Assembly: GCA_021736255.1 (NCBI GenBank)
Contig: JAIPGG010000009.1
Coordinates: 1-50,100, forward strand
Length of the DNA: 50,100 nt
Origin: Spirochaetales bacterium
GTDB taxonomy: Bacteria; Spirochaetota; Spirochaetia; JAIPGG01
Reading direction: 5' to 3'
The translations under genes and the position numbers were made by a program. The notes beneath the pieces were generated by a model. That model worked only from the letters and a program-made list of their open reading frames with translations. It searched no databases and was not told where the DNA came from. Numbering within the stretch: position 1 is the stretch's first letter; the number at the start of each line of letters is the position of its first letter. Shown piece by piece: positions 25,107 through 35,831 of this stretch.

Positions 25107-25627
25107 ACAATGAATCAGACATTTTCCTGGTAATTCATGAAGATACTGCTATTTATTCTCTCATAGGGCGCATCACGGCTGCCCGCGCTTCGGTACTGGT
25201 CACTTCCTGCGAAAAACTCCCCTCTCAGGTCAGGTTTCTTGTTTTCGATCTCCAGAACTGTAGTTATATCGACAGCACCACGATCGGCAGCTTTTTAAAA
25301 ATCAGCCGTTTTATGAACGAACGAAATGGAAAGCTGTTTTTACGCCACCCATCAGAAGAAATCACGGCTATCCTCGATGATATGCGTCTTACCCGGTTTT
25401 TTTTCATACTCGATGAAACAACCGATCCCCAATTGGAAAAGGAAATAAAAGAATTACTCGAGACCATTCCCGAAGAATCACGCATTCCCCTCCCCTACGA
25501 CGAACGCGATGTCCTCGATGAAGCCTTTATCCTGGAAGCCCACCGCGATATAGTCGACACAGCCCCCCATCTGAAACCCGAATTCGAGCATCTGATAGAA
25601 CTTTTGGAAAAAACTGTTCAAGATTAA
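25103..25627 (+). CDS. STAS-domain protein (anti-sigma factor antagonist-like)
   Basis: IYSLIGRITAARASVLVTSCEKL...LVFDLQNCSYIDSTTIGSFLKISRFMNERNGKLFL. Confidence 0.82.
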   Translation: MNNESDIFLVIHEDTAIYSLIGRITAARASVLVTSCEKLPSQVRFLVFDLQNCSYIDSTTIGSFLKISRFMNERNGKLFLRHPSEEITAILDDMRLTRFFFILDETTDPQLEKEIKELLETIPEESRIPLPYDERDVLDEAFILEAHRDIVDTAPHLKPEFEHLIELLEKTVQD

Positions 25628-25751
25628 GACCCCCCGACACGATACAAAGAATAGGGGAGAATGCGCGCGCAAAACAGGGAGTAATCTCTGACTTCTCTCC
25701 CATTTACGATTATCGGCCTTTGAGCAAACCCCTTGAGGGTTTTCATAGGCA

Positions 25752-25785
25752 TTGAGCAAGGAAGCTCAAACTTATTACTCACGGA
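25752..25785 (+). promoter_or_regulatory. candidate dual-site CsrA-binding leader of the first flaB
   Basis: Hairpin TTGAGC-AAGGAA-GCTCAA (25752-25769) with AAGGA in the loop; SD contains ACGGA (25781-25785); 18 nt between the two motifs. Confidence 0.65.
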
Positions 25786-25792
25786 GGATGGT

Positions 25793-26653
25793 ATGATTAT
25801 TAATCACAACATGAGCGCCATGTTTGCGAACCGGCAGTTGGGTGTAAACAACAAGGCCGTAAACAACAACATGGAAAAGCTCTCTTCGGGGCTTCGTATT
25901 AACCGGGCAGGCGACGATGCCTCCGGTCTGGCGGTATCCGAAAAGATGCGCAGTCAGATCCGCGGTTTACAACAGGCTTCGAGGAACGCAGAGAACGGCG
26001 TGTCGTTCATTCAAACAACCGAAGGGTATTTGCAGGAAACCCAGGATATCCTGCAGCGGATCCGCGAGCTGTCCGTCCAGTCTTCCAATGGAATCTATAC
26101 TCCTGAAGACAGGATGCAGATCCAGGTCGAGGTTTCCCAGCTGGTCGATGAAATCGACCGGATTGCTTCCCACGCACAGTTCAACGGCATGAATATCCTC
26201 ACCGGACGTTTTGCCAATGAAAACGGAGAGAATACTGTCACCGCATCCATGTGGCTGCATATCGGAGCAAATATGGACCAGCGAGAGCGGGTTTTTATCG
26301 GAACGATGACTGCAGCTGGACTTGGTGTTCGAGGAACCGGCGACGGTGAAATCCTGTCCATCTCCTCTCCTGATTCTGCAAACCGCGGTATCGGAGTTGT
26401 GGATATGGCGTTGACGAAGGTTAGCAAACAACGTGCTGATTTAGGTGCTTATCAGAATCGTCTGGAGATGGCCGTAAAGGGCATCGACATTGGTGCAGAA
26501 AACCTTCAGGCCTCCGAATCCCGTATCCGGGATGCCGACATGGCCTCTGAAATGGTAGAATACACCAAAAACCAGATTCTGGTACAGGCTGGCACGGCTA
26601 TGCTTGCCCAGGCCAATACCAAGACACAATCTGTCTTGCAATTACTTGGATAG
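25793..26653 (+). CDS. flaB: flagellin FlaB (filament core protein)
   Basis: [59 protein letters not shown]...[16 protein letters not shown] 25793 after ggagg. Confidence 0.97.
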
Positions 26654-26836
26654 AGTAGTACCCTACGAATAGATGGACAGGTTCGTTCTTTGAAAAATAC
26701 CCTTTTTGGGTATGTCGAAACATAGGAGATGTCCCGGTCAAGGATGATTCGGGGCGTCTCCTTGTTCAGTAGGGATAGGAACGGAGCAGAAGCGGCGCGT
26801 TATGAGCTTTTGCTATCCCGAACGGCATACCGAATC

Positions 26837-26870
26837 AGAGGCAATGGATGCCTCTGTCATACAACAAGGA
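26837..26870 (+). promoter_or_regulatory. candidate dual-site CsrA-binding leader of the second flaB
   Basis: Hairpin AGAGGCA-ATGGA-TGCCTCT (26837-26855) with loop exactly ATGGA; SD contains AAGGA (26866-26870); 17 nt between the two motifs. Confidence 0.65.
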
Positions 26871-26877
26871 GGGTTAT

Positions 26878-27732
26878 ATGATTATTAATCACAACATGAG
26901 CGCGATGTACGCGAACCGGGTGTTGGGACAGAAAAATGAAGCTATGTCAAACAACATCGAAAAACTTTCATCCGGAATGCGGATCAATCGCGCAGGAGAC
27001 GATGCCTCTGGTCTGGCCGTTTCCGAGAAGCTGCGCAGCCAGATTCGGGGTTTGAATCAGGCAGACCGCAACATTCAAAACGCGGTATCGTTTATTCAAA
27101 CCTCTGAAGGGTATCTGCAGGAAACACAGGATATCCTACACCGGATAAGAGAGCTGTCTGTTCAATCGGCGAACGGTATTTATACCCAGGAAGACAGGAT
27201 GCAGATCCAGGTCGAGGTATCACAACTCGTCGATGAGGTGAACAGGATTGCTTCGCACGCACAGTTCAACGGCATGAATATCCTTACCGGCTCTTTTGCC
27301 CAGGATTCGGCGGTCGACCAGTCAATGATGATTCAGGTCGGCGCAAATATGGACCAGCGTGAACAGCTTTTCATCGGAACGATGACCGCTGAAGCGCTCG
27401 GTTTGCAGTCTCAACAGGGCGAAGGCGGTATGATTTCCATCTCATCGGTGGACACCGCCAATATGGCAATCGGCACCGTTGATACGGCGCTACGAACTGT
27501 CTCCAAACAGCGAGCGGATCTGGGCGCATACCAGAACCGTTTTGAAATGGCCTCCAAGGGTGTTTCTATCGCAGCTGAAAATCTACAGGCGTCTGAATCC
27601 CAGATTCGCGACGTAGATATGGCCAGTGAAATGGTCAATTACGTCAAGAATCAGATCCTAACTCAGTCCGCCACTGCAATGCTTGCACAGGCGAACACGA
27701 AAACACAGTCTGTCTTGCAGCTGCTCGGATAG
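26878..27732 (+). CDS. flaB: flagellin FlaB (filament core protein)
   Basis: [59 protein letters not shown]...; ATG 26878 after aaggaggg. Confidence 0.97.
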
Positions 27733-27809
27733 AAGCCCGCGGGGATTTTTACCGTTCCGACTTGAATACCGGAGAGAGATTTCTGGACGTTATCTCTCAA
27801 AGGCCGGGT

Positions 27810-27832
27810 AGGAGGAGTCGCGCCCTCCTCCT
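27810..27832 (+). terminator. hairpin between the second flaB and flaG (terminator or anti-SD switch)
   Basis: AGGAGGAG-tcgcgcc-CTCCTCCT, 8-bp perfect stem. Confidence 0.45.
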
Positions 27833-27859
27833 TACTCGTTTTTATCATGGAGGATCGAA

Positions 27860-28249
27860 ATGGCCCTAGAAATACCAGGTTTGTCCAATATTGCCGCATC
27901 TCAGGAAACGGGCAGGAAGGTCCGCAGCGACACTGACGCGAGCCGGAGAAGCAGCGATATACAAGAACACACACAGAGTGTGCGGGACAATATTCGGCAA
28001 AATGCCGAAGAAAACAGTCGCCGCACCGAAGAACAACTCAACGAAACCATCCGCGAAATCCAGAAGTATGCTCAGACTTTTAACAAACGACTCAAATTCA
28101 GCGTAAACGACGAGCTCGAACGTGTCATCGTTAAGGTGGTCGACGGAAATACCGATAAAGTAATAAAGGAGATTCCCCCCGAAGCATTACAACGGGTCCT
28201 TCTCAGAATAAGGGAAGCTATCGGTATTCTCTTTGATACAACAATCTGA
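27860..28249 (+). CDS. flaG: FlaG family flagellar protein
   Basis: LKFSVNDELERVIVKVVDGNTDKVIKEIPPEALQRVLLRIREAIGILFD. Confidence 0.92.
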   Translation: MALEIPGLSNIAASQETGRKVRSDTDASRRSSDIQEHTQSVRDNIRQNAEENSRRTEEQLNETIREIQKYAQTFNKRLKFSVNDELERVIVKVVDGNTDKVIKEIPPEALQRVLLRIREAIGILFDTTI

Positions 28250-30339: not shown

Positions 30340-31257
30340 TTGAAAATTACCATCAACGAGGAACCGATAGAGTTCACGCTGGAGAATGAAAAAACTGCTC
30401 TCGATGTGGTCCAGGAATTGAATAAGTGGATTGAACAATCCGACGCCTCCATCGAAACATTGTCTTTGAATAATAAAAAACTCGAAGAGATAGACCGACA
30501 CGCTCTGAACTCTGTTACAATCGAGAACATAGACAGGATCGATATTACCGTAAAGAGTTTGCTGGATCTGGAGGTACACCGCCTCTCTCTTCTCGTTGAG
30601 TTCCTCGACCTATTGCACGAATCAGTATCCGATGAAAACAAAGAGCGCATCGACAAACTGAAAAAACAATACCCGGAGATACAGGATCTGCTCGACGACA
30701 CATTCCGTCAGCATTTTCATGAGGATCTCGATGTTTCTCGAATCGCTACCGCCTTCGACGAGAGCTCCCGCGATCAATGGAACAAAGAAGAGAAAACAGC
30801 CTACCTGAATTTTCTCGGCAGCGTAAAAAGCATCATCAATTCCCGCATACAGGAAATGAAATTTCCCAATGAAGAACTGGTAAAAACCGCACAAATGATT
30901 GCAGCCATCCGCCCCAATCTCGAAGAGGTACCGGTTCTTCTCCAAACCGGCAAGGATCGGGATGCGATGGAGCATATTATTCGCTTTACCGAATTATCCT
31001 CCCGTATCATACGAACTCTTTCCGTACTTCTGAGATTCAAAGAAACACGGCGGGAAGGATTCGAACCTCAGCAAATCGAGTCACATTACCGAGAGATGAA
31101 TGGTGTTCTGAGTGAATTGGTCGAAGCATTTTCGGAAAACGACCCCGTCCTCATCGGTGACTTGGTGGAATACGAAATACTTCCCAAACTTGATCCTCTT
31201 TTTGAAATTGTCCGACGTATTGAAAATGCAAACGGCCGCGGTGGAATTCCATCATGA
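30340..31257 (+). CDS. uncharacterised protein linked to the flagellar locus
   Basis: 305 aa helical protein translationally close to fliD (TTG start, SD aaggag); overlaps the next gene by ATGA. Confidence 0.65.
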   Translation: MKITINEEPIEFTLENEKTALDVVQELNKWIEQSDASIETLSLNNKKLEEIDRHALNSVTIENIDRIDITVKSLLDLEVHRLSLLVEFLDLLHESVSDENKERIDKLKKQYPEIQDLLDDTFRQHFHEDLDVSRIATAFDESSRDQWNKEEKTAYLNFLGSVKSIINSRIQEMKFPNEELVKTAQMIAAIRPNLEEVPVLLQTGKDRDAMEHIIRFTELSSRIIRTLSVLLRFKETRREGFEPQQIESHYREMNGVLSELVEAFSENDPVLIGDLVEYEILPKLDPLFEIVRRIENANGRGGIPS

Positions 31258-35085: not shown

Positions 35086-35388
35086 TTACAGAGAATCTTT
35101 ATCGGACCCCTGGTCACTGTTTGGCGTTTCGCCGTCTTTCGGAGCGAGATCCTCTTCCCTTTGCCCCTCCAGCATGGAATCGAGAAGGGGGATCTGGTCC
35201 GGCTTCAATCTGGCGGCGTTCCGGTTCTCTTCCTGAATCGATCGGTATACTTCGAGCCGGTAAACTTTTACATCCTTGGGAGCGGTAATTCCCAGCTTCA
35301 CCTGATCTCCCTTGATATCGATAATGGAAACCTCGATGTTGTCGCCGATAATGATGCTTTCGTCTACCTTGCGGCTGAGAATCAGCAT
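35086..35388 (-). CDS. csrA: carbon storage regulator CsrA with extended C-terminal tail
   Basis: [59 protein letters not shown]. Confidence 0.97.
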
Positions 35389-35831
35389 GTACCATTCCTT
35401 GCAGCAGACAATTCTTCGAGAATGTGATGACGTATCTTCCAGCGGGGATCCGGAGAGATACTCTGTCTTCCGAGCCGGTTTTCCTTTCCTATGACAATCG
35501 GCCCTTGGAGGTTGGCTGTCATCTGGGATTGTTCTTCCGGGATCGTTACTATGGCAAACATGAGACTATCTTCGTCATTTTTTATGCCGATCTGTTCGAG
35601 TTCTTCTTCAGGAATTCTCGGATCATAATCCGGGCGGAATATCGTTGGGTCAATGAGAACGAAAGCCACCTCGGTCACTTCCAGAGACTGCAACCAGTAG
35701 AAAGGCCTTTGAAGCGCGTCGATGAGAACGTACGAATGAAGGTTTTCGAAACCGAATATTCCGCCGGGAAATTCGATTTTCTGCCTCTCATCGACTTCAA
35801 TGGTTCCGTAGGCTTTTGTCTTGACCTGCAT
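35382..35831 (-). CDS. fliW: flagellar assembly factor FliW
   Basis: [44 protein letters not shown]...[21 protein letters not shown]; overlaps csrA. Confidence 0.96.

Follow-up and report, generated by a model that had tools for sequence, protein, structure and literature searches.

Two tandem flaB leaders and a fliW-csrA pair in one window

The window, by which we mean the whole stretch of 50,100 nucleotides that was analysed, carries two tandem genes for core flagellins, each preceded by a leader with a hairpin and a Shine-Dalgarno sequence (SD), together with csrA and fliW on the opposite strand. The features are listed below.

25752-25769, plus strand: hairpin of the first flaB leader, TTGAGC-AAGGAA-GCTCAA, 6-bp stem and hexaloop; model match 43.5 bits
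25758-25762, plus strand: predicted CsrA site 1 of the first flaB leader, ANGGA in the hexaloop AAGGAA
25780-25787, plus strand: CACGGAGG, SD of the first flaB and also predicted CsrA site 2
25781-25785, plus strand: ANGGA of predicted site 2 of the first flaB, within ACGGAGG (25781-25787), 18 nt past site 1
25793-26653, plus strand: first flaB, core flagellin of 286 aa, ATG at 25793; Flagellin_N, 153 bits
26836-26856, plus strand: hairpin of the second flaB leader, (C)AGAGGCA-ATGGA-TGCCTCT(G), 8-bp stem; model match 40.9 bits
26844-26848, plus strand: predicted CsrA site 1 of the second flaB leader, loop ATGGA
26865-26873, plus strand: CAAGGAGGG, SD of the second flaB and also predicted CsrA site 2
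26866-26870, plus strand: ANGGA of predicted site 2 of the second flaB, 17 nt past site 1
26878-27732, plus strand: second flaB, core flagellin of 284 aa, ATG at 26878; 77% identity to the first flaB
35086-35388, minus strand: csrA, 100 aa, the sole copy found in the genome
35382-35831, minus strand: fliW, 149 aa, with a 7-base overlap with csrA

Inspection of the sequence bore out most of the leader anatomy that a first-pass annotation had described: the first hairpin, the ACGGAGG SD and the dual ANGGA motifs of both leaders lie where it had placed them, with AAGGAGGG at 26866-26873 ahead of the second flaB ATG, and the gaps of 18 and 17 nt between motifs agree with the sequence. The second hairpin needed a small correction, in that its loop and site were right and its stem is one base pair longer than described (8 bp, 26836-26856). 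RNA folding recovers both hairpins and, in the second leader alone, also folds the SD into a stem-loop. Since the energy z-scores of the leaders folded alone are modest (-1.0 to -2.4), folding energy by itself is no proof of the hairpins, and their recurrence in relatives is the main evidence.

The same annotation had located csrA and fliW at 35086-35831, which we confirmed, both on the minus strand; flgL and flgK lie upstream of the pair. FliW matches FliW proteins of solved structure. CsrA shares 55% identity with its B. subtilis counterpart, and PDB chain 1t3o gives the same alignment, in which the RNA-binding residues L4 and R44, and also R6, are conserved, as is a Bacillus-like EEN stretch after the core domain. 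By sequence, the C-terminus of CsrA is extended and of the FliW-binding kind, with a putative FliW contact. Past the part aligned to Bacillus, CsrA carries an acidic tail of ~25 residues (window 35086-35165). No third flagellin besides flgL was found in the genome, the assembly of which is only ~82% complete.

Several neighbouring features were recorded. Between the two flaB genes, the loop of a 14-bp hairpin (26724-26762) contains CAAGGATG, a third sequence resembling a CsrA site; no counterpart is conserved in relatives, and the idea that intergenic ANGGA hairpins act as extra CsrA sponges was rejected, as only 24/92 intergenic regions have any such hairpin and their positions are scattered. 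The flaG leader (27808-27862) gives a weak model match of 15.6 bits and shows a strong hairpin with a loop that lacks GGA, followed by the SD CATGGAGG; in C. jejuni, FlaG levels depend on CsrA. A 305-aa ORF right after fliD (30340-31257) has no Pfam match.

A GGA-loop hairpin precedes the SD of flaB genes across the class

The flaB loci of relatives were drawn from two collections and comprised 184 distinct flaB leaders. A hairpin with GGA in its loop and a stem of at least 4 bp lies just before the SD in 174 of them, and a stem of at least 5 bp is found in 162/184, against 6.3% of dinucleotide shuffles. The loop reads ANGGA in 166 leaders, where N is A in 90, T in 29, C in 27 and G in 20; to judge from these loop sequences, an ANGGA with a free N matches the specificity of CsrA. 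Because this search required GGA in the loop, it was rerun on the strongest hairpin with any loop, and the best hairpin still carried ANGGA in its loop in 164/183 flaB leaders. Leaders of relatives might have lacked the loop GGA, as the first-pass annotation had allowed; instead, the GGA loop and the ANGGA of the SD recur across the class. Both are also present in other classes of the phylum, where the distribution is patchier: 52/60 phylum genomes match the covariance model described below at E <=1e-4, not all of these matches being strong or before flaB, and ANGGA lies in the loop of the best hairpin in 24/40 sampled leaders (mostly one per genome).

The two ANGGA motifs are separated by 17-20 nt in 132/174 leaders and by 15-21 nt in 155/174, with a mode of 19. 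A fixed spacing of 17-18 nt, as had been proposed from the window, is too strict; since the gaps of relatives spread mostly over 15-21 nt, 17-18 nt is a near-central value and no fixed rule. In Borrelia-like genomes the gap from loop to SD looks much longer.

We then examined covariation in 150 model-aligned leaders (140 distinct). Stem cells are paired in 82.8% of cases versus 55.7% in shuffles, double-sided stem changes number 371 versus 134 in shuffles and are seen in all 8 pairs, and the covariation score is 0.695 versus 0.215 shuffled and drops sharply once the partner is slid, all of these counts leaning towards the hairpin because the alignment was fitted to the structure. Structure prediction from the same alignment yields the same helix, and predicts the upstream hairpin only, with no conserved second hairpin around the SD. 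Furthermore, where both copies of a tandem flaB pair have a good hairpin (62 pairs), the inner six stem bases are never the same in the two copies (0/62). The strong stem covariation and the absence of shared inner stems therefore indicate that the layout is kept while its letters turn over, in agreement with the earlier proposal, made from the two unrelated stems in the window, that the leaders are conserved as structure and not as copied DNA.

The SD carries the second ANGGA

The sequence around the SD is constrained as well. Before GGAG, flaB leaders have C in 181/184 and A in 178/184, followed by a variable N (CANGGAG), counts that are inflated by kinship among the leaders; among the remaining genes in these loci whose SD is GGAG (n=242), the matching positions hold C in 122/242 and A in 99/242. 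A CANGGA context is the expected preference of CsrA. Because N and the stems change freely despite shared ancestry, the pattern suggests that the constraint on the SD context is selective. A purine-rich SD resembles ANGGA by default, and the enrichment of C and A in these sequences argues against this being the whole explanation.

The element lies almost exclusively on flaB

A covariance model of the leader was built, with a strong match defined as at least 27 bits. In the genome of the window, the model gives 43.5 and 40.9 bits to the two flaB leaders and 19.7 to the runner-up, a site before tuf. The possibility that other genes carry the element was rejected: ahead of tuf and further housekeeping genes the matches are weak, and most of their score comes from a good SD. 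Across 78 sampled genomes there were 113 matches of at least 27 bits, 110 of them directly before a listed flaB; of the remaining 3/113, one sits at the end of a contig and reads into the start of a flaB, one lies before a 66-aa ORF near flaB, and one is upstream of a gene whose product is probably a solute-binding protein. The 66-aa ORF (L196, G034:C121:16603-16651) begins VIANAS and follows a copy of the element that scores 30.9 bits; it may be a flagellin start that has decayed.

Counted by gene, 110/151 listed flaB genes have a strong match, and at least one is found in 47/55 genomes with a listed flaB. Several of the 41/151 listed flaB genes that fall short of 27 bits still show a GGA-loop hairpin by eye, and the recognisable hairpins below the threshold include those of genomes resembling Borrelia, T. 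denticola and T. pallidum. Families f7 and f13 keep csrA and fliW while the recognisable element is missing on some or all flaB, and there are also copies whose loop has changed to GGG. In f13 (L171-L173, L175), some flaB copies have a hairpin loop that is GGGG or lacks GGA, such as CCGGATGGGGGTCCGG; with csrA and fliW retained, single copies may have lost CsrA control naturally.

Searching the window from 25600 to 26950 against Rfam 15 gave no covariance-model match to the leaders at E up to 1. This phylum-wide, flagellin-specific, covarying element without an Rfam match appears to be new.

The genes for flagellin and for the two candidate regulators are distributed alike. flaB, csrA and fliW are all present in the same 59/78 genomes and all absent from the same 19, without exception, and csrA is not kept without flagellin in these 78 genomes. 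Their joint loss with the flagellum explains part of this co-occurrence.

A probable CsrA operator on both flaB mRNAs

By analogy with characterized flagellin leaders, we infer that CsrA very probably represses both flaB mRNAs through a two-site operator and that FliW relieves this repression. Each flaB mRNA would start with such an operator: a CsrA dimer would bind the ANGGA exposed by the upstream hairpin loop together with the CANGGAG ~19 nt further downstream, which doubles as the SD, and would thereby hide the SD and keep both core flagellins from being translated. At low levels of cytoplasmic flagellin, FliW, encoded beside CsrA, would bind CsrA and lift the repression; unexported FlaB would capture FliW and restore it. 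Because the same leader design recurs on spirochaete flagellin genes, the CsrA/FliW feedback loop described in Bacillus and Campylobacter probably holds down their flagellin output. Bridging by a single CsrA dimer is possible over distances of 10-63 nt between sites and works best near 18 nt (PMC7652899); the gaps of 18 and 17 nt in the window fall inside this range, and the second ANGGA overlaps the SD. It is this bridging distance, together with the precedents for the layout and the spirochaete CsrA data, that makes occlusion of the SD by CsrA, with FliW as antagonist, the most likely mechanism.

The hairpin might also be a CsrA dock whose main outcome is titration of CsrA, or protection or stabilisation of the mRNA, in place of repression. 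The C. jejuni flaA leader titrates CsrA besides being repressed (PMC4894983), and overexpression of csrA in L. interrogans raised flaB mRNAs (PMC8668096), on account of which the sign of CsrA control on flaB may vary between spirochaetes. We nevertheless consider this outcome unlikely, given that the second site falls on the SD in almost all leaders, as one would expect of a layout that blocks ribosomes, and that CsrA lowers flaB in L. biflexa according to the same report. It is more improbable still that the GGA of the loop serves ribosomes as a standby or decoy site, or is the target of another GGA-binding protein, unrelated to CsrA. If exposed in a loop, AAGGA could pair with the anti-SD, and the pattern alone names no protein; however, the free N and the form A-N-GGA, instead of GGAGG, fit CsrA and not an anti-SD site, and flaB, csrA and fliW co-occur without exception in our sample. 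In addition, CsrA binds flaB leaders in Leptospira (PMC8668096) and represses FlaB in Borrelia (Sze et al. 2011, as cited in PMC3757020, PMC9481697 and PMC4066749). The chance that the upstream transcript ends at this hairpin, through intrinsic termination or attenuation, is close to nil. A pattern scan flags 25752-25769 as terminator-like, with the tail ACTTATTACT, but leaves the second hairpin, which has no T tract, unflagged; the tails are not T-rich across the 150 aligned leaders, where the conserved part is the loop ANGGA, and the hairpin lies ~20 nt ahead of the SD. As the second hairpin lacks a T tract and relatives show no conserved one, the terminator was rejected.

Several flagellins make up the spirochaete filament, and a large part of their control takes place after transcription. 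Set against this background, a conserved, covarying flaB operator would offer a concrete and testable site for the joint dosing of core flagellins, and would make FliW-CsrA feedback, known from a few model species, a feature of a whole phylum; a curated RNA family could be derived from the present covariance model. A broader proposal, which we offer tentatively and regard as somewhat doubtful, is that the leader is an ancestral flagellin RNA element found throughout Spirochaetota and spirochaete CsrA mainly a dedicated flagellin homeostat, not a global regulator. It draws on the joint retention and loss of csrA, fliW and flaB and on the strength of the element almost only on flaB; since the element persists in tandem flaB copies whose stems have diverged, several flagellins of one composite filament would, on this proposal, come under one CsrA/FliW feedback.

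Comparison with known systems

The two-site layout is not unprecedented, being already known from B. subtilis hag, C. jejuni flaA and B. burgdorferi flaB. The C. jejuni flaA leader has two ANGGA stem-loops, the second at the ribosome-binding site, and footprints and mutants demonstrated that both are needed for repression (PMC4894983). As in that leader, the first ANGGA here is presented by a hairpin loop and the second coincides with the ribosome site, fliW is present, and the leader structure is backed by compensatory changes (PMC4894983). The second site of C. jejuni flaA is also in a stem-loop, whereas here only the upstream hairpin is conserved. In B. subtilis hag, the CsrA sites BS1 (A51-A55) and BS2 (C75-G82), the second over the SD, are ~20 nt apart (as cited in PMC7652899 and PMC8523840). 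The two predicted sites, the second over the SD, and the FliW antagonist encoded with csrA are likewise found in the window; hag, however, is a single external flagellin gene of a Gram-positive bacterium, and the window encodes two tandem periplasmic core flagellins.

Closer relatives offer further parallels. CsrA of B. burgdorferi represses flaB through leader sites, one of them over the SD (Sze et al. 2011, cited in PMC3757020, PMC9481697 and PMC4066749), a spirochaete flaB arrangement like the one predicted here; B. burgdorferi has one flaB against two in our window, and the gap looks much longer in Borrelia-like genomes. CsrA sites near flaB SDs, as predicted here, have been noted for flaB1 and flaB2 of T. 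denticola (PMC9481697) and for flaB3/flaB4 of Leptospira, where CsrA of L. biflexa binds the flaB3 leader and a change of GGA to AAA abolishes binding (PMC8668096). The gene order flgK-flgL-fliW-csrA is common to T. denticola, Leptospira and the window (PMC9481697, PMC8668096). The T. denticola and Leptospira sites are single-gene reports, and the accessible portions of these (PMC9481697, PMC8668096) do not describe the shared covarying hairpin that we find across spirochaete flaB leaders.
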